28,267 bases of DNA from a virus, in IMG/VR virus record IMGVR_UViG_3300037882_002175, positions 1 to 28,267 of that record. The stretch is one strand, 5' to 3'. This document shows positions 157-27,497 of the stretch, in pieces. Position 1 is the stretch's first letter; each line of letters starts with the position of its first letter. Below the pieces are notes generated by a model that was given only the letters and a program-made list of their open reading frames with translations, had not been told where the DNA came from and made no database searches. The translations under genes and the position numbers were made by a program.

Positions 157-357
157 ATGTCATATATAGATAAAGAATTAATAAAAACTGTATATGTTTG
201 CGAAACTGATTGGGAAATTGAGATTGGTGAAACATCTGACATAGTCATTTATCCTTCCATAAAATCTCTAAAAAAACATAGACAGTGTTGGAAAGAATGT
301 GGTATAGTTGAACTTGAGGTTCGTAAAAAGCGTTCGATTAACGATGGAGATTTATGA
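157..357 (+). CDS. Small hypothetical protein, 66 aa
   Basis: A short acidic and lysine-rich protein of unknown function. It has no membrane segment and no motif I recognise; the residues CETDWEIEIGE near the N-terminus suggest a compact beta-type fold, but this is weak. It starts after a modest AAAGGT ribosome site, and its TGA stop overlaps the ATG of the RNA ligase gene (ATGA at 354-357). The two are therefore very likely translationally coupled. Confidence 0.6.
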   Translation: MSYIDKELIKTVYVCETDWEIEIGETSDIVIYPSIKSLKKHRQCWKECGIVELEVRKKRSINDGDL

Positions 358-1397
358 TAAAATACATTATATCGGAACTTTTACAATTAGTGGAACAAGG
401 TTATCTTCGTAAATCAGAAAATGAAGATTTAATTTTATTTAAATACACAGAAAAATGTACGTTTGAAAGATATTGGAATAATCTCACGATGGCTTGTCGT
501 GGATTAGTTTTAGAAAAATCAACAGGACTAGTTGTTGCTAAACCTTTTGAAAAATTCTTTAATTTGAATGAAGTACCACAAAGTGCTTACATTAATTTAC
601 CTAATGAAAGCTATACAATTCATTCTAAGGAAGACGGTAGCCTTGGAATTATTTTTAACTATAAAGGTAAATGGTGTGTCGCGACCTGCGGGAGTCTTAG
701 TTCTCAACAATCACAGGAAGCACAAAAAATGTTATCTCAATATAATCTTGATAATATTCCTAAAAATTATACATTATTGGTGGAGATAATATATCCTGAG
801 AATAAAATAGTGGTTAATTACGGTAATAGACGAGAGTTAATTTTATTGGGTATATTTAATAGGGAAACCGGACAAGAAATACTCAACTTCGATATTTGTG
901 ATATTCCAAAAGCTATTACATTTAATATAACCATAGAAGATGCTATAAAACAACAAAAAACCATATCAAAAGATCAAGAAGGATTTATTGTTCGTTTTAA
1001 TAGTGGACTTCGTGTTAAAATTAAAGGTGAAGAATATGTTAAAATTCATCGTATTATTTCTAATATGTCACCACTTTCTATTTGGGAAGTAATGGAAAAC
1101 GGTAAAGTTGCTCAATCATATATAGAAAATATTCCAGAAGAATATAGAGACGAAATTACTAAAGAATACGTTATACCATTGGAGGATAAATATAAAATCA
1201 TTAAATTAGAAATTAAAGAACAATTACAGTCTTTTTATGAACCAACTATGACAATAAAAGATGTAGCCCTTAGAATGAAGTCTTCACCAGAAATCTTTAC
1301 TCATATGTCAGGAATATTTGCTTTTCTTTCAGGAAAAGGGTATAATAGATATATAATGAATCAAATACGACCAAATGGTAACAAATTAAAGGAGTAA
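354..1397 (+). CDS. RNA ligase, T4 Rnl1-like
   Basis: ATP-dependent RNA ligase of the nucleotidyltransferase superfamily, joining 3'-OH and 5'-phosphate RNA ends. Motif I, the AMP-accepting lysine, is K92 in KEDGS (92-96), as in T4 RnlA. Upstream are the family signatures ACRGLVLE (48-55) and PFEKFFNLNE (64-73); further on come LLVEIIYP (141-148), motif IV EGFIVRF (209-215) and motif V VKIKGEEYVK (221-230). At 347 residues it is close to T4 Rnl1, with an Rnl1-like C-terminal region. Rnl1 of T4 repairs tRNAs cut by anticodon nucleases; that role here is inferred, and no polynucleotide kinase/phosphatase partner is visible in the window. It begins an operon-like run with the small gene at 1403. 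Confidence 0.9.
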   Translation: MIKYIISELLQLVEQGYLRKSENEDLILFKYTEKCTFERYWNNLTMACRGLVLEKSTGLVVAKPFEKFFNLNEVPQSAYINLPNESYTIHSKEDGSLGIIFNYKGKWCVATCGSLSSQQSQEAQKMLSQYNLDNIPKNYTLLVEIIYPENKIVVNYGNRRELILLGIFNRETGQEILNFDICDIPKAITFNITIEDAIKQQKTISKDQEGFIVRFNSGLRVKIKGEEYVKIHRIISNMSPLSIWEVMENGKVAQSYIENIPEEYRDEITKEYVIPLEDKYKIIKLEIKEQLQSFYEPTMTIKDVALRMKSSPEIFTHMSGIFAFLSGKGYNRYIMNQIRPNGNKLKE

Positions 1398-1955: not shown

Positions 1956-2702
1956 ATGTCGATATATCTAAATAATACATTAGTAATCCCTACTATATTT
2001 CCTGACGGAACTTCACAAATATGGAAAATTCCAGAACACACAATTAAGCTTTACTCTGAAGCTAGAGTCGTTTGGAAATTTCAAAACGAAGCCGAATTTA
2101 TACATTTATCACAGTTAAAACATCTATTAGACAGTTATAATATACAAACATTTTTAGAAATACTTTACATGCCTTACGCTAGACAAGATAAGGGAGTTTC
2201 TAATAATTCCACGTTCGCATTATATCCGTTTTGTAAATTATTGAAATCATTAAATTTCCTTCAAATATTCATTCTTGATCCACATAGTAAGACAACATTA
2301 GAATTATTAAACGCTAAGGGTTACTATCCTTCAACGCAAATTACTAATCTATATTTAACTGAAAAATATGACACACTTTGTTATCCAGACAAAGGTGCTG
2401 TTGAAAAATATTCTAAAAAGTATATACAACCATTTATTTACGCAGACAAAATTAGAGATCAACTTAGTGGTAATATTTTAAGTATTGATATTGTTGGAGA
2501 TTGTAAAGATAAAAAAATTTTAATCGTTGATGATATTTGTGATTATGGTAATACTTTCATCAAATTGGCGGAACAATTATATAAGCATGGAGCTAAAGAC
2601 GTTGATTTATTTATAACTCATGGTTTATTTTCTGGAGGCGTGGAAATGGTTAAAAAAAGTGGAATTAAAAATATATATACGCCCGACGGATTACAAAAAT
2701 AA
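1956..2702 (+). CDS. PRPP-synthetase-like enzyme; candidate ADP-ribose pyrophosphate synthetase (NARP1 Adps-like)
   Basis: Member of the ribose-phosphate pyrophosphokinase fold, which transfers pyrophosphate from ATP to the C1 hydroxyl of a ribose. Visible signatures: YARQDK (74-79), DPHS (108-111), PDKGAVEKY (144-152), the phosphoribosyl loop VDDICDYGNTF (191-201) and THGLFSGG (221-228). It has 248 residues, shorter than the usual 310-320 of cellular Prs. In the loop that holds the 5'-phosphate of ribose-5-phosphate, the usual small residues (DTAGT/DGGGT) are replaced by DYGNT. It lies 113 bases upstream of a NAMPT-like gene. Together these match the phage NARP1 pair, in which the Prs-like protein acts on ADP-ribose. 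A conventional PRPP supplier for the NAMPT-like enzyme is the alternative. The start follows AAAGGTAAGAG. Confidence 0.85.
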   Translation: MSIYLNNTLVIPTIFPDGTSQIWKIPEHTIKLYSEARVVWKFQNEAEFIHLSQLKHLLDSYNIQTFLEILYMPYARQDKGVSNNSTFALYPFCKLLKSLNFLQIFILDPHSKTTLELLNAKGYYPSTQITNLYLTEKYDTLCYPDKGAVEKYSKKYIQPFIYADKIRDQLSGNILSIDIVGDCKDKKILIVDDICDYGNTFIKLAEQLYKHGAKDVDLFITHGLFSGGVEMVKKSGIKNIYTPDGLQK

Positions 2703-2773
2703 TTATGAGCAAACCGACAATTTGTCCCGAAAAAAGATTTGATATTTAGAAAAAATAAGATTATAATTAAAAA

Positions 2774-2815: not shown

Positions 2816-4306
2816 ATGAAAAAAAGACAAACGTTAAATGCTATGTTATTATGTGATTTTTATAAAATTTCACATAGAGAACTTTACCCTCAAGGTATGG
2901 AAATATGTTATTCAACTTGGACGCCGAGAGCATCAAGAATGAACAACGTTAATGACGTTGTTGTATTTGGACAACAAGCCTTTATTAAAAAATATTTAAT
3001 TGATTTTTTTAATGAGGAGTTTTTTCAACAACCAAAAGAACAAATTATTGCGGATTATAGTCGTATTATTAAATACACTTTAGGGGTTCAAGAACCAGAC
3101 GTTAAACATATTGAAGAATTACACGATCTGGGATATCTTCCTCTCGAAATTAAAGCATTACCTGAAGGTTCGGTAGTTCCACTTCGTGTTCCAACAATGA
3201 CAATTCAAAATACCGATAAACGATTTTTTTGGCTTACAAATTATATCGAAACATTAGCTTCTTGTGAATTATGGCAAGCATCAACTTCGGCAACTATTGC
3301 TAGAGAATATCGTAAAATTCTCAATAAAGCAGCAATTGAGACCGTTGGTGATACGGGATTTGTCGGGTTCCAGGGACACGATTTTTCCATGCGGGGACTA
3401 AGTTCCTTATCTTCCTCTATTTCTAGCGGAATGGGACATCTTTTGTCTTTTGTTGGAACAGATACAATTCCGGCAATTCAAGGTGCCGAAGAGTATTATA
3501 ACGCTAATGTTGAAAAAGAACTTATCGGGACATCCATCCCTGCGTCCGAACATAGTATTGAATGTTCCTATGGCGATGATTTAGAATATTTTAGAAAAAT
3601 TATTACTGAAATTCACCCTAAGGGATTAATATCTATGGTTTCAGATGGATATGATTTTTGGAAAGTTATTAGTGAAGTATTACCGGCACTTAAAAGTGAA
3701 ATTATGTCTAGATCTGGAGGTCCTGTCGGTGATAAAGTCGTAATTAGACCTGATAGTGGAGATCCTGTACTTATTGTATGTGGCGATCCTAATGGAAAAA
3801 CTGAACTAGAACGTAAAGGTGCGATAGAAGCACTTTGGGATATTTTTGGTGGAACTGTTACGTCTAAAGGATATAAAGTACTTGATAGTCATATTGGTCT
3901 TATTTATGGAGACGCCATCACTCTTAAGCGTTGTCAGGAAATTTGTGATAGACTTAAACAAAAAGGGTTCGCTTCGACTAATATAGTGCTAGGTATTGGA
4001 AGTTACAGTTACCAATACAATACTAGAGATACATTTGGTTATGCATTAAAATCAACTTATTGTGTTATTAACGGTGACGAAAAACAAATCTTTAAAGATC
4101 CAAAAACTGATAATGGTATTAAAAAATCACAAAAAGGTATGGTTGCTGTATTAAAAAATAATAACACTTTTGTTGTTGTTGATGGACTTAATACTAATTG
4201 TACCATTGCGGGAGACGACGAACTTACGACAGTTTTTAAAGATGGACAACTTTTAGTTGATGATTCTTTTGAAAATATTAGAAATAGACTTGCAATTTTC
4301 AAATAA
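2816..4306 (+). CDS. nadV: Nicotinamide phosphoribosyltransferase family; candidate nicotinamide ADP-ribose transferase (NARP1 Namat-like)
   Basis: Full-length (496 aa) member of the NAMPT/NadV family. NAMPT joins nicotinamide to PRPP to give NMN; the NARP1 homologue joins nicotinamide to ADP-ribose pyrophosphate to give NAD+ directly. Family marks: CDFYKISHRELYP (13-25), HDFSMRGLSS (188-197), GTDTIPA with D216, the catalytic histidine in SEHS (H246), SDGYDFW (276-282) and RPDSGDP (311-317), close in position to H247, R311 and D313 of human NAMPT. The start follows AGGAG. No NMN adenylyltransferase is seen in the window, which favours the one-step NARP1 chemistry with the upstream Prs-like protein over NARP2, but sequence alone cannot separate the two substrates. 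Confidence 0.9.
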   Translation: MKKRQTLNAMLLCDFYKISHRELYPQGMEICYSTWTPRASRMNNVNDVVVFGQQAFIKKYLIDFFNEEFFQQPKEQIIADYSRIIKYTLGVQEPDVKHIEELHDLGYLPLEIKALPEGSVVPLRVPTMTIQNTDKRFFWLTNYIETLASCELWQASTSATIAREYRKILNKAAIETVGDTGFVGFQGHDFSMRGLSSLSSSISSGMGHLLSFVGTDTIPAIQGAEEYYNANVEKELIGTSIPASEHSIECSYGDDLEYFRKIITEIHPKGLISMVSDGYDFWKVISEVLPALKSEIMSRSGGPVGDKVVIRPDSGDPVLIVCGDPNGKTELERKGAIEALWDIFGGTVTSKGYKVLDSHIGLIYGDAITLKRCQEICDRLKQKGFASTNIVLGIGSYSYQYNTRDTFGYALKSTYCVINGDEKQIFKDPKTDNGIKKSQKGMVAVLKNNNTFVVVDGLNTNCTIAGDDELTTVFKDGQLLVDDSFENIRNRLAIFK

Positions 4307-4328
4307 ATGTGATAACTTTGTATTTGAT

Positions 4329-4428
4329 AATAATTAGTAGCGACTTGAAGCATTGCTATAGTCCTAAGGTTGAACCGTAAGGGTTCGAAAAGAAATGAAT
4401 ACGTAGTTTTTTTGTGCTACTAATTATT
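4329..4428 (+). ncRNA. Structured RNA candidate 1 (13-bp closing helix)
   Basis: The 13 bases at 4329-4341 (AATAATTAGTAGC) are the exact reverse complement of 4416-4428. Inside are a hairpin GAACC-GTAAG-GGTTC (4372-4386) and a possible GACT/AGTC stem (4342-4363) enclosing AGC-ATT-GCT. The element is about 100 bases, contains no plausible frame and lies in the 359-base gap after the NAMPT-like gene. The strand is assumed from the neighbouring genes; no known RNA class was recognised. Confidence 0.55.
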
Positions 4429-4451
4429 TAAAAGACAAACTGAACCTATAA

Positions 4452-4527
4452 ATATTACACTGGAGACTAGGAGTTCCTTGTCAGGATGTAACGATAGTCA
4501 TAATTTGACAATTATGAAGTGTAATAT
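4452..4527 (+). ncRNA. Structured RNA candidate 2 (10-bp closing helix)
   Basis: 4452-4461 (ATATTACACT) pairs perfectly with 4518-4527. It encloses GACTA (4465-4469) with TAGTC (4495-4499), a CCT-TGTC-AGG mini-stem inside that, and a perfect 7-bp hairpin CATAATT-TGAC-AATTATG (4499-4516). This gives a 76-base branched fold of tRNA size, but with no TTCGA T-loop or anticodon arm. It is 23 bases from candidate 1 and 9 bases from candidate 3. Confidence 0.55.
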
Positions 4528-4536
4528 GTGTTTTCT

Positions 4537-4633
4537 CACATAAGCGAGAATCTCGTTTCCCAAACCTTGCCTCTGCAATTGAAAAATTGTGAATCGGCTC
4601 GTACAGTTTAATCTCGCTTGTGTGTTTTTTTTT
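4537..4633 (+). ncRNA. Structured RNA candidate 3 with U-tract end
   Basis: 4537-4549 (CACATAAGCGAGA) pairs over 13 positions with 4612-4624 (one G-U pair) and is followed directly by nine T residues (4625-4633), so the element probably ends as an intrinsic terminator on the plus strand. Inside is a CAATT-GAAA-AATTG hairpin with a GAAA tetraloop (4576-4589). A 62-base interior is unusually large for a simple terminator. This suggests a discrete RNA or a terminator fused to a regulatory fold. Confidence 0.55.
4612..4633 (+). terminator. Likely intrinsic terminator of the NAD/RNA block
   Basis: The 3' arm of the 13-bp helix at 4612-4624 is immediately followed by T9. Transcription from the NAMPT-like gene and the RNA elements would stop here. 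The gene at 4666 then needs its own promoter or read-through. Confidence 0.55.
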
Positions 4634-4665
4634 GAGTTATTAGGAAATTCCAAAGAGGTGATTTT

Positions 4666-4896
4666 ATGTATATGAATTTGTTTTTCAACTCAAAATCTAG
4701 AACATGCGAATGTGTTCCGATACCTATTGATGGATATGTTTATGTTTCACAAGAAAATCACAGTGAAAACCGAGCAGGACATGATGTAATTACTAAAAAA
4801 TTTAAATGCGTACAATGTCCTCTTTGTAAAAAAAGATATTCGATTGGTGATTCTCTTGAAACAGAGAAAATATTTATACCATATAACAATGTGTGA
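4666..4896 (+). CDS. Small cysteine-rich protein, probable zinc knuckle, 76 aa
   Basis: The start follows a good AGAGGTGA site. Residues 48-54 contain C-x2-C-x2-C (CVQCPLC) followed by KKRYSIG, with another CEC near residues 14-16, a pattern that could bind one zinc ion. There is no membrane segment. It may bind nucleic acid or a protein; the role is unknown. It is the first gene after the structured-RNA block and its stop is 6 bases from the next start. Confidence 0.6.
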   Translation: MYMNLFFNSKSRTCECVPIPIDGYVYVSQENHSENRAGHDVITKKFKCVQCPLCKKRYSIGDSLETEKIFIPYNNV

Positions 4897-4902
4897 GACA
4901 CA

Positions 4903-5208
4903 ATGAAATATACGAATGACGATATCATAGTTGAAGCTAAACAATATATCGCCAATGGCGATACTAATTACCAATTTTATGAATTGTGTGCTTATTTTGA
5001 TTTCCCTAAAGAAATATATATGTCGGCAGAAGATTGTGAAATATACATTAATGTTGCAGAAGGTGTTCAATTTCACGTTAAGTCTGGCGATTACGTATTT
5101 AAAGATAATAATGGTATTTTTTATTGTCGTAATTATGATGCATTTGAATCGTTATTTAAACCTTTAATTGGCGATTCATTTGAAGAGAAGAAATTGTTTA
5201 TATCGTAG
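4903..5208 (+). CDS. Hypothetical protein, 101 aa
   Basis: An acidic protein with many aspartate, glutamate and tyrosine residues (DDIIVEAKQYIANGD, MSAEDCEIYINVAEG, FHVKSGDYVFKDNNG). It looks like a small alpha/beta protein. I recognise no family. It is tightly spaced after the zinc-knuckle gene, and overlapping frames on both strands are shadows of it. The ribosome site is weak, so it may be translated by coupling. Confidence 0.55.
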   Translation: MKYTNDDIIVEAKQYIANGDTNYQFYELCAYFDFPKEIYMSAEDCEIYINVAEGVQFHVKSGDYVFKDNNGIFYCRNYDAFESLFKPLIGDSFEEKKLFIS

Positions 5209-5313: not shown

Positions 5314-5766
5314 ATGTCAAACGTAATATACATTAAAGGCGATCTTTTCAATGCTACTAAAGGATCAGTATTGGCACATGCTGTAAATGGTCAGGGCGTT
5401 TGGGGATCTGGCATCGCTAAACAATTTAAAGAACATTTTCCTATTTCATTTAATGCATATAAAATGGTGTGTAATACGTTACGAAAAAATAGTATTCCAG
5501 GACTAGCTCTATCATTCGCTAAAGAAAATGGTTACACGGTTTTAGCTTTATTTACAAGTGAAAATTATGGCGATAAAGTTAGTAGTCCTGATGTTATATT
5601 AAGTAATACTTATTCTTGTTTTGAAGATTTGATGGATCATTCGGATATAAGAGAAATTCATATGCCGAAGATTAATAGTGGATTATTTAACGTTCCTTGG
5701 GAATTGACAGAAAAGGTCTTGTTGGAATTTCCGGAAATTACGTTTTACGTTTATAGTCAGGTATGA
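5314..5766 (+). CDS. Macro domain protein (ADP-ribose binding or hydrolase)
   Basis: A stand-alone 150-residue macro domain. Recognisable features are the adenine-contacting aspartate in IKGDLF (D10), the ribose loop AVNGQGVWGSGIAKQF (23-38) and the phosphate-loop region PKINSGLFNVPW (118-129). The short form, with GQGVWGSGIA, resembles the Poa1p/TARG1-like group, whose members dephosphorylate ADP-ribose 1''-phosphate or remove ADP-ribose from proteins or nucleic acids. Which reaction this one performs cannot be read here. Its proximity to a NARP-like pair suggests it may release or recycle ADP-ribose, or reverse ADP-ribosylation by host defence. It is the last plus-strand gene before the head operon arriving from the other side. 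Confidence 0.85.
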   Translation: MSNVIYIKGDLFNATKGSVLAHAVNGQGVWGSGIAKQFKEHFPISFNAYKMVCNTLRKNSIPGLALSFAKENGYTVLALFTSENYGDKVSSPDVILSNTYSCFEDLMDHSDIREIHMPKINSGLFNVPWELTEKVLLEFPEITFYVYSQV

Positions 5767-5886: not shown

Positions 5887-6924
5887 TTAGTTAACAATAA
5901 GATTAATTAGAACGTTCTTTCCTGGAGCGTGGCAGAAAAGTGCTTGATCTGTATAGACTCTCATTTCGTAACCTGCATTATCATTTAGCTCTCTAAAGAA
6001 ATCATCTCCTCTTCCTGGTCTCTTAAATGTAACGTCAGAAACCCCAATTCGCATCATTTCATCAAGAGACAACACGTAAGCATAGCTCTCTTTTACGTAG
6101 ATGGAAGGAACGATTTCAATTTTACCATTTTGACCGTGGAACGCTAATTCCTTAGCTCCATTTTCAGACTTAGCTGAAGAATATGATTGGTCGTACATTC
6201 TAAGAGCCGCCTGATCATTAAGTAAATCAGCCCAAGCTTTAGGATTAACTAAAACCATCACTTCGCTATCAAGACCTTTTTCTACAGCGCGAGCAATAGC
6301 GTCTTGGATTTTGTTAAAAGAAAGTGCTGCAGAACCAGCAGAGTAGGTATTACCCTTCCAAAGCGTATATTGTGCTGCATCAATTCCAAACAATGATCCA
6401 GTATTGCTGATAATTTTATGAATTCCAGCAAATTCGTTACCGTATGCACCTTTATGCCAAATAACATCACCAGCAGTCATTGTAAGTGCTGAATTGATTG
6501 TGATTGTTCTAGTATCGAAATCAACCGCAGTAATTGTAACGTTTCCGCGTACAACAGCTCCAGTAGCATCTCGAACTTCGATAGGCATATTTTCTGCACC
6601 ACCCCAAATACCAGGTGCCCATTCTCCAACAGGAATAACGATTGAAGTCGCTGATCCAGTAGAAGTAACAGTTCCGTAACCCATTTGTCCGTAAAGCAAT
6701 TCGATCTCTAATTTCTTAGTGATTGAACGCAACATGTTTCCGATAAGGAATTTAGTTGCTTGTTTAAAAGCTTTAGATCCACCTTCAGCAGAAGCAGCAG
6801 CGGATTTATAACCCAAAGCTGAACGTAAAAGTAGCTGCGTACCACGAACGGTAGCATCTTTAATTTGACCACTGATGGGAGGATTTAGCAAAAATGCATC
6901 GTCTCCACCGGCAGCGAACGTAAC
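5887..6924 (-). CDS. Major capsid protein, exon 2
   Basis: The C-terminal 345 residues of the capsid protein, starting VTFAAGGDDAFLLNPPI and ending NVLINLIVN. The fold resembles the N4 gp56 family of HK97-type capsids (VTFAAGG early; HKGAYGNEFAGIHKI and QDAIARAVEKGLDSEVMVLVNPKAWADLL in the middle). The frame also offers ATG at 6927, but that is not the true start: the N-terminal 56 residues are encoded about 1.1 kb upstream at 8005-8172, separated by a group I intron. Joined, the protein is about 401 residues, the size expected of this family. It is the last gene of the operon. Confidence 0.85.
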   Translation of the reverse strand, partial: VTFAAGGDDAFLLNPPISGQIKDATVRGTQLLLRSALGYKSAAASAEGGSKAFKQATKFLIGNMLRSITKKLEIELLYGQMGYGTVTSTGSATSIVIPVGEWAPGIWGGAENMPIEVRDATGAVVRGNVTITAVDFDTRTITINSALTMTAGDVIWHKGAYGNEFAGIHKIISNTGSLFGIDAAQYTLWKGNTYSAGSAALSFNKIQDAIARAVEKGLDSEVMVLVNPKAWADLLNDQAALRMYDQSYSSAKSENGAKELAFHGQNGKIEIVPSIYVKESYAYVLSLDEMMRIGVSDVTFKRPGRGDDFFRELNDNAGYEMRVYTDQALFCHAPGKNVLINLIVN

Positions 6925-8004
6925 CATTTGTTATCGTAAAGGCTTTTTATCCTCTACTTCTTATAGTTTCCTATAAGTTCAGCATATCTATTCTTCCTCT
7001 ATTTGAGGAGTTGGTGACTCGTGGGAATATTCTATTCTACTTTAGAAGTAGGGTCAATTCCTATGCGTTGCGCGTGTTCAGTGATTTTACTCTCTGTACT
7101 TCCGCTCTGATTGGCTTGTAAATATTCAAATGTCCATCTTTTTGAATGAGATCTTCGTGAAGATTTTTTACATATAGCAACAACATTAGAAGGATTATGT
7201 CCGTCTAATTTAGTTGAATGTGCTGTCTCATATATTTTAACGACATTAGTGTCTAAATTAGTAGCTTTTATTTTTTGTCCACCTAAAGACCTAGAAATTT
7301 GGATACGTTGTTCATTAGAACGAACTTCTCCTCTTCTCTTTAATAACGGTTTTCCTATTTTAGCTTTACTTATTTTCATTCTTAATTCGTCGGAACAAAT
7401 ACCATTCTGATTTCCACCAGCTCTATGATTATATCCATAAGGATGTAAACTATTCATTTCTTTTACAAAATGGACTTCAGATTTATTTAATGTTGTTTGA
7501 TCTAAACAAGAACAAATTACGTCTATTCTAAAATTTTCAATACCATATTGTCTTATAGCATTTGAAATATGTCTATTACGTTTTTCGTTAATATGATTAT
7601 TTAAACGAGAATAAATAGATTGCGTTGTTTGTCCCACATATCTTTTATTATCTTTTAAATTTGTTATCATATAAATTATTCCGTACATATTTCTATTTTA
7701 TCCTACTTTTTAAACATTTTCTATATTTATTTAGCTTTCCAAGTTTTTTCACCAATTTATACACGGCATTATCGTTTACCGTGTTCCATCCCACATTTTG
7801 TTACTCCTTATTTCTAAGGGGAGAAACCTCTTCGGATTTCTCTCTACTCCTTCTTTTGTTATAGAGTAGTTCAGACTATCGCATCTACTTTCGTAGTTTT
7901 CTCACTTAGTCGTTCAGGCTAGCTTTACCCTTGCCCCTTGTTATCCACTTCTGGAACTCCAAGTCAATCAGAGAAAATTTTTTATAGTAGACCCTAGATT
8001 AGTT
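6925..8004 (-). mobile_element. Group I intron in the capsid gene
   Basis: About 1.08 kb separates the two capsid exons. On the minus strand the group I core is visible: P3 TTTTCTC (7977-7971) with GAGAAAA (7903-7897), P7 GACTA (7911-7907) with TAGTC (7878-7874) in the conserved S-like context GATAGTCTGAAC, and P8 CTAC-GAAA-GTAG (7896-7885). P1 can form between exon GTAGTCCTT (8013-8005) and guide AGGGTCTAC (7995-7987), with one mismatch and a U-G pair at 8006/7994. A 7-bp hairpin with a GAAA loop near 6955-6975 resembles a P9 element. A homing endonuclease lies downstream of the core. The boundaries given are those that keep the capsid frame open; the exact splice sites are uncertain by a few bases. 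Confidence 0.85.
7032..7688 (-). CDS. GIY-YIG homing endonuclease (intron-encoded)
   Basis: The 218-aa protein starts MYGIIYMITN with the GIY-like strand, then RYVGQT (16-21), a conserved arginine in SIYSRLNNH (24-32) and a probable catalytic glutamate in NKSEVHFVKE (68-77). Downstream are two NUMOD3-type DNA-binding repeats (SDELRMKISKAKIGK at 99-113 and SNEQRIQISRSLGG at 124-137) and a NUMOD1/IENR1-like segment (about 140-190). This is the standard layout of intron homing nucleases, which cut intronless alleles to spread the intron. It lies wholly inside the capsid intron, 3' of the ribozyme core. No strong Shine-Dalgarno precedes it, as is common for intron genes. Confidence 0.92.
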   Translation of the reverse strand: MYGIIYMITNLKDNKRYVGQTTQSIYSRLNNHINEKRNRHISNAIRQYGIENFRIDVICSCLDQTTLNKSEVHFVKEMNSLHPYGYNHRAGGNQNGICSDELRMKISKAKIGKPLLKRRGEVRSNEQRIQISRSLGGQKIKATNLDTNVVKIYETAHSTKLDGHNPSNVVAICKKSSRRSHSKRWTFEYLQANQSGSTESKITEHAQRIGIDPTSKVE

Positions 8005-8172
8005 AAGGACTACTGGTTGATGATAGAAGTTACCAGGTTGATATTCTTTTTTTGCAAAAGGAATTCTTTGCAAAAGCTTTGTGCCATCCGGTATTAGATC
8101 TTCAAGATCTGAAGCATACGCTTCCTTGAATAACCCGTTTAATGTGTCTAATGTATTAGCTGAACTAGCCAT
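8005..8172 (-). CDS. Major capsid protein, exon 1 (true N-terminus)
   Basis: ATG at 8172 opens a 56-codon frame (MASSANTLDTLNGLFKEAYA at the start, GNFYHQPVVL at the end) that hits a stop at 8001-7999. The sequence matches the N-terminal arm typical of N4 gp56-type capsids: 'NTLDTLNGLFKEAYASDLEDLIPDGTKLL', then a 'QPGNFYHQPV' strand that should continue into 'VTFA', which begins exon 2 at 6924. It is preceded by the purine-rich AAGAAAGAGAAAT and follows the decoration-type gene by 23 bases. Confidence 0.8.
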
Positions 8173-11879: not shown

Positions 11880-14453
11880 TTATTTACGTCTGAATGTCGA
11901 TTTTAACTTAAATTGTTCAACAATTTTATTTAAACCTTTGTCGTTAATTTCAGCAACATAATTAGGATTATGAAATAAATCGGAATGTCGTCCTAACATA
12001 TTATGTCTGTAACCTTTAGGGTACGGATTTCTAGATCTATCGATATTTCTAACTAAATACACACAACAATCAAGAAAATCGTAATGTCCGTTATCAGCAC
12101 TTCGACTATAATCTTTTCTATCTTTTTTCCATGTTGCATTTTTTAAATGACTAATTACGGTTTTACATCTAGGGTGTATAATAATCTCTCTATTACTAAT
12201 CATCATCCTTAAATGATTAATTTGTGCCTCTTTATTGTCTTTTAATGTTGGAAGAAACGTGATGTTATGTAAACGCATCAAATCGTTTAATAAAATAGGA
12301 TTATTATCACTAATTCTACGATATGGGGTTTGTTGTTCTCCAGTTAAAGAACTAGTCCATAATTGAGCTTCTTTATCTTTTATTAGTTTAGCCAAATAAT
12401 CTGTTGTCATTTTAGGACCATTAATAGTTATTTCATCTTCTATAACTAAAACTCCATTATCAAAATCATAGTAACCAAAAATCACAGCAGTTAAATCTTT
12501 AAATCCTATATCCATTGATATGTAATTATCGGCAAACGCAGGTCTAACCCATTCGCAAACGATATCTTTTTCTACGTCGGTAAATTCTGGAATAACAGAA
12601 AATGATGAATTAGTTAAACGTTTACATAGAAATTCCAATTGGAATTCTTCACTATCTCTACCGAAATGATAAGTTTTTTCTATATCAGCAACAATTTCTG
12701 CGGTTATTCTAGGATTAGCTTGACCTATGTTATCCTCAACCGCATCGTAAATGGTTTTAACTATTAGGGAACCCTTTATTTCTGCATTATCCGCATACTT
12801 TAAAAACTCGTGATCAGGATTCGGTGGAGTTGTTGAAGATAATAATATGCGACCTTTAGTTAATGTTGTTGTTGGAACTAATATAGAGTTAACTAAATAT
12901 TTTAAATCAGAACAAAATCCAGCTTCATCGACAATAGCAACCCAAGTGTCACCACCACGCATTTTTTCAGCATTACCATTATCGCTTCCGGCTAATTGTA
13001 ATTGTGAACCGTTAGAGAATAAATAAATATTATCCATTTTATCAAATCTAGGTTTTAGATTTTTAGGACAATCTTTTAATATTTTTTCCATGATTGGACG
13101 AATATTAACTCTGATCATTTTTTGTTCAGGTTGACACATTTTTACAATACAATTAGGAGTTTTTAAACATTGTTCTACAGCCATTAACGTTAATAAAAAA
13201 CTATTATGAGTAACTAAACCGTTGGCAGTTAAATACATATGACTGTCGTTATCAATTGTAATATCGTATGTTTTGGTTATACGTTTTTCTTTAGATACTT
13301 TAACGCCCATGAAGTCTGGAGTTGTATTGTTTTCTAATAGATTTTCATAATGATTAAACCATTTTTTTCTAGGAGTTTGAATATATTGATCTAATTCCTT
13401 TAAAATTCGCTTACAGATTAAATTATTTTTTAACGAAAGTTGATAAAATTGACCATTAACATATTTGTCTCTTTTATCGATAATAATTTTAACTTTATAT
13501 TGATATAAATAATGAATTAAATATTGAAATGCCTCTATTAATGATTTAGATTGGGAACCGAATTGAATATTTAGACAACGATCAGTTTTAGTAACACCAA
13601 TGGAACCATCAGTATCAATTAAACCAGCTAATAATGCGCACATTGATTGTCTATTCCAAGTTTTAACAACTTCTAAATCTATAATCTTTTCATGTGCATA
13701 ACGATCTTTACACCAATTATCGTAATAATTACAATTCAATCTTACATTTGAATGTGTGTAGCTTTTTATTTTTTTATTACTTAACGTCCAAGTATAATTT
13801 TTAGGATTTTGTTTTCTAAAATGACAATTTAAAATTTTCGCAATTTCTTTTGGAATAACATCACTTTCACTGGAGATATGAATATCATTAATTCCCTGTC
13901 TACTACAACCATCACCTAATAAACAACCAATTGCGTATGCGTGAGGTTCATAAAATTTACCACCTGGGGTATTTATAAATATTCTTCGTATTTTATCTAC
14001 AGTATTAAAAGCTTTAACTGTCTTTTCTTCTAATTTGTGTCGCTTATTATTACCAACTAACCATTTATGATCTTCAGTACAACTACCAACAATTTTACCA
14101 TTATTTACTAAATCGACAACTTCTTTTTCACCTTGATACTCGACAGCAATAACGTTAGTTAAAGAAACATCATTAGTTTGATAATTATAGCCATAAACTT
14201 TATCGCCGATTTTAATATCTTTAATTGGAACCAATCCTCTATCGGTAATGATAAGTTCGTTTTCTTCTAGACATTTTCCTAAACGACGAGAACAATTAAC
14301 TACAACAATTTTTTCAGGAGAATTATAAAACGAATCGTAAATTTTTTTTTGCGTTATATCCAATTTCCACGACAACTCACCCATAGACCAAAGCTTACGT
14401 CTGGCTTCCTTAACTTCTGATGCTAATAATAATTCAATGTTATTATCCTGCAT
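11880..14453 (-). CDS. terL: Terminase large subunit, interrupted by an intein
   Basis: 857-residue precursor. The host protein (about 500 residues after splicing) is the packaging ATPase-nuclease: the Walker A motif NCSRRLGK-S is split by the intein after K60; Walker B is VDEA (508-511 of the precursor); the coupling motif is SSTTPP (539-544). The C-terminal RNase H-like nuclease shows D648 in YISMDIGF, D716 in ISDNNP and the HYDFLD acid cluster (790-795). It starts by TAATG overlap with the upstream coiled-coil gene. Without intein removal the P-loop cannot form, so activity should depend on protein splicing. Confidence 0.93.
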   Translation of the reverse strand: MQDNNIELLLASEVKEARRKLWSMGELSWKLDITQKKIYDSFYNSPEKIVVVNCSRRLGKCLEENELIITDRGLVPIKDIKIGDKVYGYNYQTNDVSLTNVIAVEYQGEKEVVDLVNNGKIVGSCTEDHKWLVGNNKRHKLEEKTVKAFNTVDKIRRIFINTPGGKFYEPHAYAIGCLLGDGCSRQGINDIHISSESDVIPKEIAKILNCHFRKQNPKNYTWTLSNKKIKSYTHSNVRLNCNYYDNWCKDRYAHEKIIDLEVVKTWNRQSMCALLAGLIDTDGSIGVTKTDRCLNIQFGSQSKSLIEAFQYLIHYLYQYKVKIIIDKRDKYVNGQFYQLSLKNNLICKRILKELDQYIQTPRKKWFNHYENLLENNTTPDFMGVKVSKEKRITKTYDITIDNDSHMYLTANGLVTHNSFLLTLMAVEQCLKTPNCIVKMCQPEQKMIRVNIRPIMEKILKDCPKNLKPRFDKMDNIYLFSNGSQLQLAGSDNGNAEKMRGGDTWVAIVDEAGFCSDLKYLVNSILVPTTTLTKGRILLSSTTPPNPDHEFLKYADNAEIKGSLIVKTIYDAVEDNIGQANPRITAEIVADIEKTYHFGRDSEEFQLEFLCKRLTNSSFSVIPEFTDVEKDIVCEWVRPAFADNYISMDIGFKDLTAVIFGYYDFDNGVLVIEDEITINGPKMTTDYLAKLIKDKEAQLWTSSLTGEQQTPYRRISDNNPILLNDLMRLHNITFLPTLKDNKEAQINHLRMMISNREIIIHPRCKTVISHLKNATWKKDRKDYSRSADNGHYDFLDCCVYLVRNIDRSRNPYPKGYRHNMLGRHSDLFHNPNYVAEINDKGLNKIVEQFKLKSTFRRK
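13203..14273 (-). mobile_element. Intein with LAGLIDADG homing endonuclease in TerL Walker A
   Basis: A 357-residue in-frame insertion (precursor residues 61-417). It begins with the nucleophile cysteine in CLEENELIITDRGLVPI, has block B GSCTEDHKWL (intein 63-72), two LAGLIDADG-type helices (AIGCLLGDG at 114-122, LLAGLIDTDG at 214-223), block F TKTYDITIDNDSHMYLTANG and block G VTHN, followed by serine as the +1 extein residue. All splicing residues (C1, block B TxxH, HN terminus, S+1) are present, and both endonuclease helices keep their acidic residue. It therefore looks active for splicing and probably for homing. Confidence 0.93.
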
Positions 14454-27369: not shown

Positions 27370-27375
27370 TACTCT

Positions 27376-27430
27376 AAACGTCGTTTATAACGACGTTTAC
27401 ATGGAAGGGTATATGTAGGGTATACCTTTT
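27376..27430 (+). terminator. Tandem hairpins after the DUF932-like gene
   Basis: A 9-bp stem AAACGTCGT/ACGACGTTT (27376-27384, 27390-27398) has no U-tract. A second stem pairs 27404-27413 with 27421-27430 over ten positions (two G-U pairs near its base plus one more), with T4 at its 3' edge. A transcription pause or terminator, or a processing site. Confidence 0.4.
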
Positions 27431-27497
27431 CAATTATCTCTCGTCGAACAGTTAAATATGGCACTTTAAAACGATTATAGACGACTAGGCGGTCATT

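Follow-up and report, generated by a model that had tools for sequence, protein, structure and literature searches.

A structured RNA region between NAD genes and accessory genes of an uncultured virus: its first unit has a covarying relative in a phage groEL leader

Positions 4329-4633 of the window, the whole 28,267-bp record of an uncultured virus that was analysed here, form a real and partly validated structured RNA: three successive units, each closed by a long helix, followed by a run of nine thymidines (T9; Table 1). The first of them, unit 1, represents a new orphan RNA family that is absent from Rfam; its relative in a second phage shows compensatory base changes and lies in the 5' leader of a groEL gene. 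As a tentative reading, held at a little less than an even chance, the region would be a cis-acting plus-strand leader between NAD genes and downstream accessory genes, with unit 1 as its recognition element and unit 3 and T9 as its terminator.

Results

Genomic setting

The portal protein of the window is P22-like. Its gene for nicotinamide phosphoribosyltransferase (NAMPT) is complete up to the usual end of the protein, and the 359 nt between it and the 76-aa open reading frame contain no plus-strand gene; as the original prediction had it, the region is without an open frame, since plus-strand frames of at least 60 aa are absent from 4307-4665. Unit 1 lies on the strand of both flanking genes. 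The 76-aa protein has no match in Pfam, PHROG or PADLOC and no relative was found; the 101-aa protein had no match in a tblastn search against phages and likewise no relatives.

In two relatives of the same portal group (L037 and L047), the macro-domain gene directly follows NAMPT and the RNA block is missing, so that the block looks inserted in the window; in a third (L045), another gene follows NAMPT after a short gap. The window thus seems to have gained approximately 1 kb, consisting of the RNA block and the two small orphan genes. None of the 293 relatives obtained from a four-member portal alignment carries the block RNA.

Several other elements of the window were recorded. A probable group I intron in the capsid region (6922-8007, minus strand) carries a GIY-YIG endonuclease (7032-7688), and the gene for the terminase large subunit (11880-14453, minus strand) contains an intein with a LAGLIDADG domain at approximately residues 75-417. 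The intergenic stretch 27370-27490 holds two strong hairpins, AAACGTCGTT-TAT-AACGACGTTT and AAGGGTATA..GGTATACCTTT (z -5.6). A canonical intrinsic terminator, GGGTGTC...GACACCC-T7, is located at ~5846-5816 on the minus strand.

Table 1. Positions in the window of the structured RNA units, their component helices and the neighbouring genes.
Feature	Position	Strand	Description
RNA ligase gene	354-1397	+	
Ribose-phosphate pyrophosphokinase gene	1956-2702	+	
Promoter-like site	2739-2767		upstream of NAMPT
NAMPT gene	2816..4306	+	upstream neighbour; PF04095, PF18127
Unit 1	4329..4428	+	member of two-member orphan RNA family; relative in G002; covarying pairs
Unit 1 closing helix P1	4329-4341/4416-4428	+	AATAATTAGTAGC/GCTACTAATTATT; 13 Watson-Crick pairs
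Unit 1 helix P2	4342..4363	+	GACT 4342-4345 / AGTC 4360-4363
Unit 1 conserved core	4347..4388	+	GAnGCATTGCTAnnGnCCTAAGGTnnAACCnTAAGGGTTnGA; ungapped local alignment with G002; includes hairpin P3 (4370-4376/4382-4388)
Unit 2	4452..4527	+	two competing interior folds, one with hairpin CATAATT-TGAC-AATTATG
Unit 2 closing helix	4452-4461/4518-4527	+	ATATTACACT/AGTGTAATAT; 10 pairs
Unit 3	4537..4624	+	closing helix around 62-nt branched interior
Unit 3 closing helix	4537-4549/4612-4624	+	CACATAAGCGAGA/TCTCGCTTGTGTG; 13 pairs including one G-U
Alternative 7-bp hairpin	4542..4558	+	AAGCGAG-AAT-CTCGTTT; competes with 5' arm of unit 3 helix
T9 run	4625..4633	+	probable terminator tail, directly 3' of unit 3; equal-longest plus-strand T-run
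76-aa orphan protein gene	4666..4896	+	downstream neighbour; CxC and CxxC cysteines
101-aa orphan protein gene	4903..5208	+	downstream neighbour; weak phrog_1810 match only (2.6e-4)
Macro-domain protein gene	5314..5766	+	downstream neighbour; PF01661

Closing helices and folding statistics

All three predicted helices and the T9 run are present, and the suspicion that chance is unlikely to produce such a succession was borne out: none of 60 dinucleotide-shuffled versions of the window placed three non-overlapping helices, each with 10 or more Watson-Crick pairs, inside 320 nt, a comparison that is slightly strict in that it counts Watson-Crick pairs and the real third helix has one G-U. Single 10-bp helices are common in the window (9 observed, 5.2 expected from shuffles); 13-bp helices are rare, with 0.15 per shuffled window. 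When one G-U pair was allowed, the only non-coding clusters of three disjoint helices among ~170 related loci were the block described here and an array shared by the loci L042, L043 and L046.

Folding energies, computed within boundaries that were chosen post hoc, gave z scores of -4.05 for unit 1, -3.32 for unit 3 and only -1.42 for unit 2, whose fold barely beats its shuffles; the whole 359-nt region, also delimited post hoc, reached -3.27. Fixed 100-nt windows showed no excess of folding stability. The signal thus resides in the closing helices and not in general stability, and the interiors of all three units are less certain than the helices that close them. Within unit 1 the hairpin at 4370-4388 is solid whereas a second helix is weaker, and one hairpin in the interior of unit 3 has a probability of ~0.85. 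The three units have no sequence similarity to each other.

Comparison with known RNA classes

The original prediction saw neither a tRNA nor any known RNA class in the region, a view with which the searches agree. ARAGORN found 0 tRNA or tmRNA genes in the window, RF00005 gave no match within 4250-4700 at E values up to 10, and Rfam 15 gave no match in the window at gathering thresholds; permissive thresholds added only chance matches (E 4.5 and 6.4). Two individual resemblances were rejected as well. Mimicry of 23S rRNA domain IV (CCTAAGG, TTCCTTGTC and GTAACGAT) yielded scores of 19-23 when the units were aligned with an actual 23S gene, for each unit no better than shuffled controls, and tRNA or tmRNA remnants received no score from ARAGORN or RF00005. 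A group I intron is less readily judged: the core-like pair GACTA/TAGTC stands without supporting scaffold or exons, the flanking genes are unsplit, and the block has no Rfam group I match, although the Rfam group I model also missed the probable intron at 6922-8007.

A covarying relative of unit 1

A covariance model built from the single unit 1 sequence and run against 49 whole phage records returned one full-length match, at positions 76442-76349 (minus strand) of the uncultured 86.9-kb phage IMGVR_UViG_3300037222_000084, hereafter G002 (36.3 bits; E 2.6e-6 for the G002 record). The NAMPT of G002 is the second closest to that of the window, with 72% identity, and the two phages also share genes for ribose-phosphate pyrophosphokinase, a macro-domain protein and gp88. 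The conserved core aligns without gaps over 42 nt, 33 of them identical (79%); its score of 44 compares with a maximum of 23 in 500 shuffles against the G002 element; when nearly the whole of G002 was compared on both strands, 60 shuffles reached at most 34.

Compensatory change in homologous phages had been proposed as the decisive evidence, and it was found, for unit 1 only: 8 of 24 base pairs differ on both sides between the two phages (five in P1, two in P2 and one in P3), P2 reading GTCC/GGAC in G002 with two of its four pairs changed. In the alignment, which was made with the structure-blind program MAFFT and comprises two sequences only, 93.8% of cells are paired, vs. 23-48% when the partners are slid by 1-3 columns. 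The ends of the G002 element were set by the covariance model, which favours P1; P2 and P3 lie inside the ungapped core. The free fold of the longer G002 leader prefers another partner for P1. The covariation identifies the plus strand as the functional one.

The exact closing helix of unit 1 occurs 0 times in 2.9 million viral contigs, and the core pattern GCATTGCTAnnnnCCTAAGG was recovered there from G002 only; 12 bacterial contigs with the same pattern do not fit the unit 1 model, and a 25-bit match in a Chitinophagaceae genome is without the core. No third member emerged from ~100 phage records or the collected loci with one- and two-sequence models, nor, with model R3 and stricter filters, from 398 genomes in the phylum to which a Thiotrichaceae MAG belongs or 395 in that of a Saprospiraceae MAG. 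BLAST-type searches of phages, plasmids and 40 records of NAMPT phages revealed no DNA-level relatives of the whole block above chance. Either the unit 1 family is rare or narrowly spread, or most of its members have diverged in the core. Conservation was observed for unit 1 only; a covariance model of unit 3 found no relative in the 49 phage records, and none was found for unit 2, which was searched by sequence.

Position of the relative in G002

The G002 element forms the 5' leader of a groEL gene (590 aa, Cpn60, PF00118) and is encoded on the groEL strand. A near-consensus promoter (TTGACA-17-TATAAG) is followed by the element, an AAGGAG site and the ATG; the element begins a few nucleotides past the promoter and ends ~30 nt ahead of the groEL start codon, and no terminator was seen between element and gene. 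The G002 element thus occupies the promoter-to-start interval, the 5' UTR location of a riboswitch-like leader; covarying stems around conserved nucleotides, a further mark of such leaders, are found in unit 1 only, on the basis of two sequences. In the window, the 3' end of unit 1 lies 237 nt ahead of the next start codon, and upstream of it there is a weak TTGCAA-15-GATAAC with extended -10 and no strong promoter.

Unit 3 and T9

Unit 3 with T9 has the stem of an intrinsic terminator, 13 bp with 6 G-C pairs directly followed by T9; its loop of 62 nt exceeds the 3-8 nt of the short-loop type, which is why the terminator scan did not list unit 3 and T9. It is probably a long-loop intrinsic terminator at which read-through would be possible. 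Since AATCTCGTTT and AATCTCGCTT are near-repeats, the 5' arm of unit 3 can first pair with the sequence just behind it; the resulting alternative hairpin has a computed energy of -5.0 kcal/mol, vs. -19.9 for the full unit 3 helix, and a folding switch in unit 3 would be possible.

Structured RNA at other loci

Structured RNA was also observed at further loci. Four closed-helix RNAs follow one another in G002 at 64854-65240 (L213 4854-5240); an RNA-ligase gene lies upstream of them, and the last outer stem is followed by T7. The first of these RNAs is tRNA-like (RF00005, 36.6 bits) and was missed by ARAGORN; it has a 9-bp acceptor-like stem, TGG at the anticodon position and an odd T loop. Downstream of NAMPT in a 264-kb phage (L042, IMGVR_UViG_3300038393_000804, 6160-7300), a tandem array of structured RNA units without Rfam match extends over more than 1 kb and recurs in identical form in L043 and L046; its type X units have different but matching closing stems (CACATAGA/TCTATGTG, CCATGTGTA/TACACATGG and CATCCAG/CTGGATG), and its type Y units close with TTCTATTT..AAATAGAA. 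In L005, a tRNA with incomplete anticodon sits directly downstream of NAMPT (5570-5680) inside a longer outer helix (GAGAGCGG/CCGCTCTC), and a second structured stretch after it shares CGGTTACTTCATT. The loci L174-L177 (G066, G067) encode an 812-aa NAMPT whose homology is split by ~900 nt in frame, which suggests an intein. Within 500 nt downstream of NAMPT in ~70 phage loci, 23% of non-coding windows have z < -3, vs. 6% elsewhere in the same loci, an excess that is based on small numbers and may be explained by terminators.

Discussion

Of the roles originally suggested for the region, a composite regulatory leader is best supported, because the sole relative of unit 1 is a groEL 5' leader behind a promoter; decoys, sponges and RNA-ligase substrates found no direct support, although the window does have an RNA-ligase gene further upstream. 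In a composite leader, unit 1 would be the part that is recognised and would stand for a new and rare family of phage RNAs, in which the long closing helix, P2 and P3 would hold the nucleotides GCAUUGCUA, CCUAAGG and nUAAG in place; these are constant where the stems vary, which points to a ligand or protein as their probable reader. Unit 3 and T9 would act as an intrinsic terminator whose loop is unusually long. Most transcripts would then end at ~4633, and the 76-aa, 101-aa and macro-domain proteins would be made only by read-through past T9, to an extent set by the fold of the leader or by the binding partner of unit 1. Unit 3 is most simply explained if transcription stops at T9 and in part reads on into the accessory genes; its 62-nt loop, far above ordinary terminator loops, counts against this. 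The leader reading itself is weakened by a unit 1 family of two members in unrelated gene contexts: these contexts share nothing, so that no ligand can be named, and with no terminator before groEL in G002, terminator control cannot be the mechanism common to both. Two further points tell against it: unit 1 has no strong promoter directly ahead of it in the window, and P1 prefers another partner in the free fold of the longer G002 leader. Orphan structured 5' UTR leaders, the riboswitch candidates, offer the nearest parallel, in that the G002 element, directly upstream of groEL, is a closed RNA of junction type that combines covarying stems with fixed nucleotides; they differ from the unit 1 family, which has no Rfam match, two members, and neither a common downstream gene nor a shared expression platform.

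The main rival, which we consider less likely, holds that the units are separate trans-acting small RNAs, cut or trimmed at their closing helices from one transcript with T9 as the shared 3' end, which might, for instance, draw off host nucleases or RNA-binding proteins in the manner of decoys or sponges. This reading accords with the succession of three self-contained units that closes with a T-run, with the array of more than 1 kb downstream of NAMPT in the 264-kb phage, and with the closed-helix run in G002 with its tRNA-like first member, upstream RNA ligase and terminal T7; yet the sole relative of unit 1 sits in a groEL leader and lacks its own terminator, no relatives of units 2 and 3 were found, and the three units are unlike in sequence. 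Phage clusters of tRNAs and small RNAs near RNA ligase are comparable in that the block is a closed-helix run among genes for RNA ligase and NAD metabolism, and in that G002 supplies a tRNA-like example; in contrast to such clusters, units 1-3 lack tRNA arms and any score from ARAGORN or RF00005. Phage NAD and RNA-repair networks have been reviewed (PMC9503650), and the portions of the review drawn on here make no mention of RNAs of this type.

It is improbable that unit 1 works as HK022 put does, as an antitermination element close to the promoter whose nascent RNA would bind RNA polymerase and let it read through unit 3/T9 and later terminators. Both would be cis-acting phage RNAs near a transcript 5' end with a terminator downstream: the G002 element begins a few nucleotides after its promoter, a terminator-like structure follows unit 1 in the window, and an element directed at the polymerase would explain why the gene behind it can vary. 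The put RNAs of HK022, however, comprise two stem-loops in ~70 nt (PMC9378689), whereas unit 1, at 94-100 nt, is a closed arrangement in which a single closing helix surrounds two inner elements, and no strong promoter precedes it in the window.

Still less probable is that the region is the degenerate leftover of a self-splicing or tRNA-like RNA and no longer has a function. The phage does harbour the intron-like GIY-YIG element of the capsid region and the terminase intein, and the GACTA/TAGTC pairs of the units recall group I P7; but NAMPT runs on to its usual end, the searches for tRNAs and introns gave no score (with the reservation that Rfam also missed the probable capsid intron), and a remnant is unlikely because the stems of unit 1 have been kept by compensatory change. 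An RNA antitoxin with terminator ahead of a toxin gene (type III or AbiF-like), with the 76-aa or 101-aa protein as the putative toxin, is the least plausible reading: the order of RNA, T9 and small same-strand gene recalls AbiF/RCd22, in which a terminator ahead of the gene halts most transcription (PMC12373285), but neither protein belongs to a recognisable toxin or defence family, the units do not repeat a single motif in tandem as antitoxin RNAs do, and the relative of unit 1 precedes groEL and not a toxin.

In a bolder reading, on balance a rather improbable one, the unit 1 RNAs of the two phages may be the founding pair of a new class of cis RNA sensors or polymerase-modifying elements, portable before unrelated phage genes (groEL in one case, an NAD/ADP-ribose accessory block in the other), which in the window would form one composite switch together with a long-loop terminator and two more domains.

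What began as a guess from raw sequence has led to a covarying RNA, absent from Rfam, that is common to two NAD-salvage phages and stands ahead of different genes in each. Should it act in cis, phages would possess in it a portable control module, and the fixed core of unit 1 offers a concrete target for ligand- or protein-binding assays; if it is a free small RNA, it would be among the few non-tRNA phage RNAs with comparative support.
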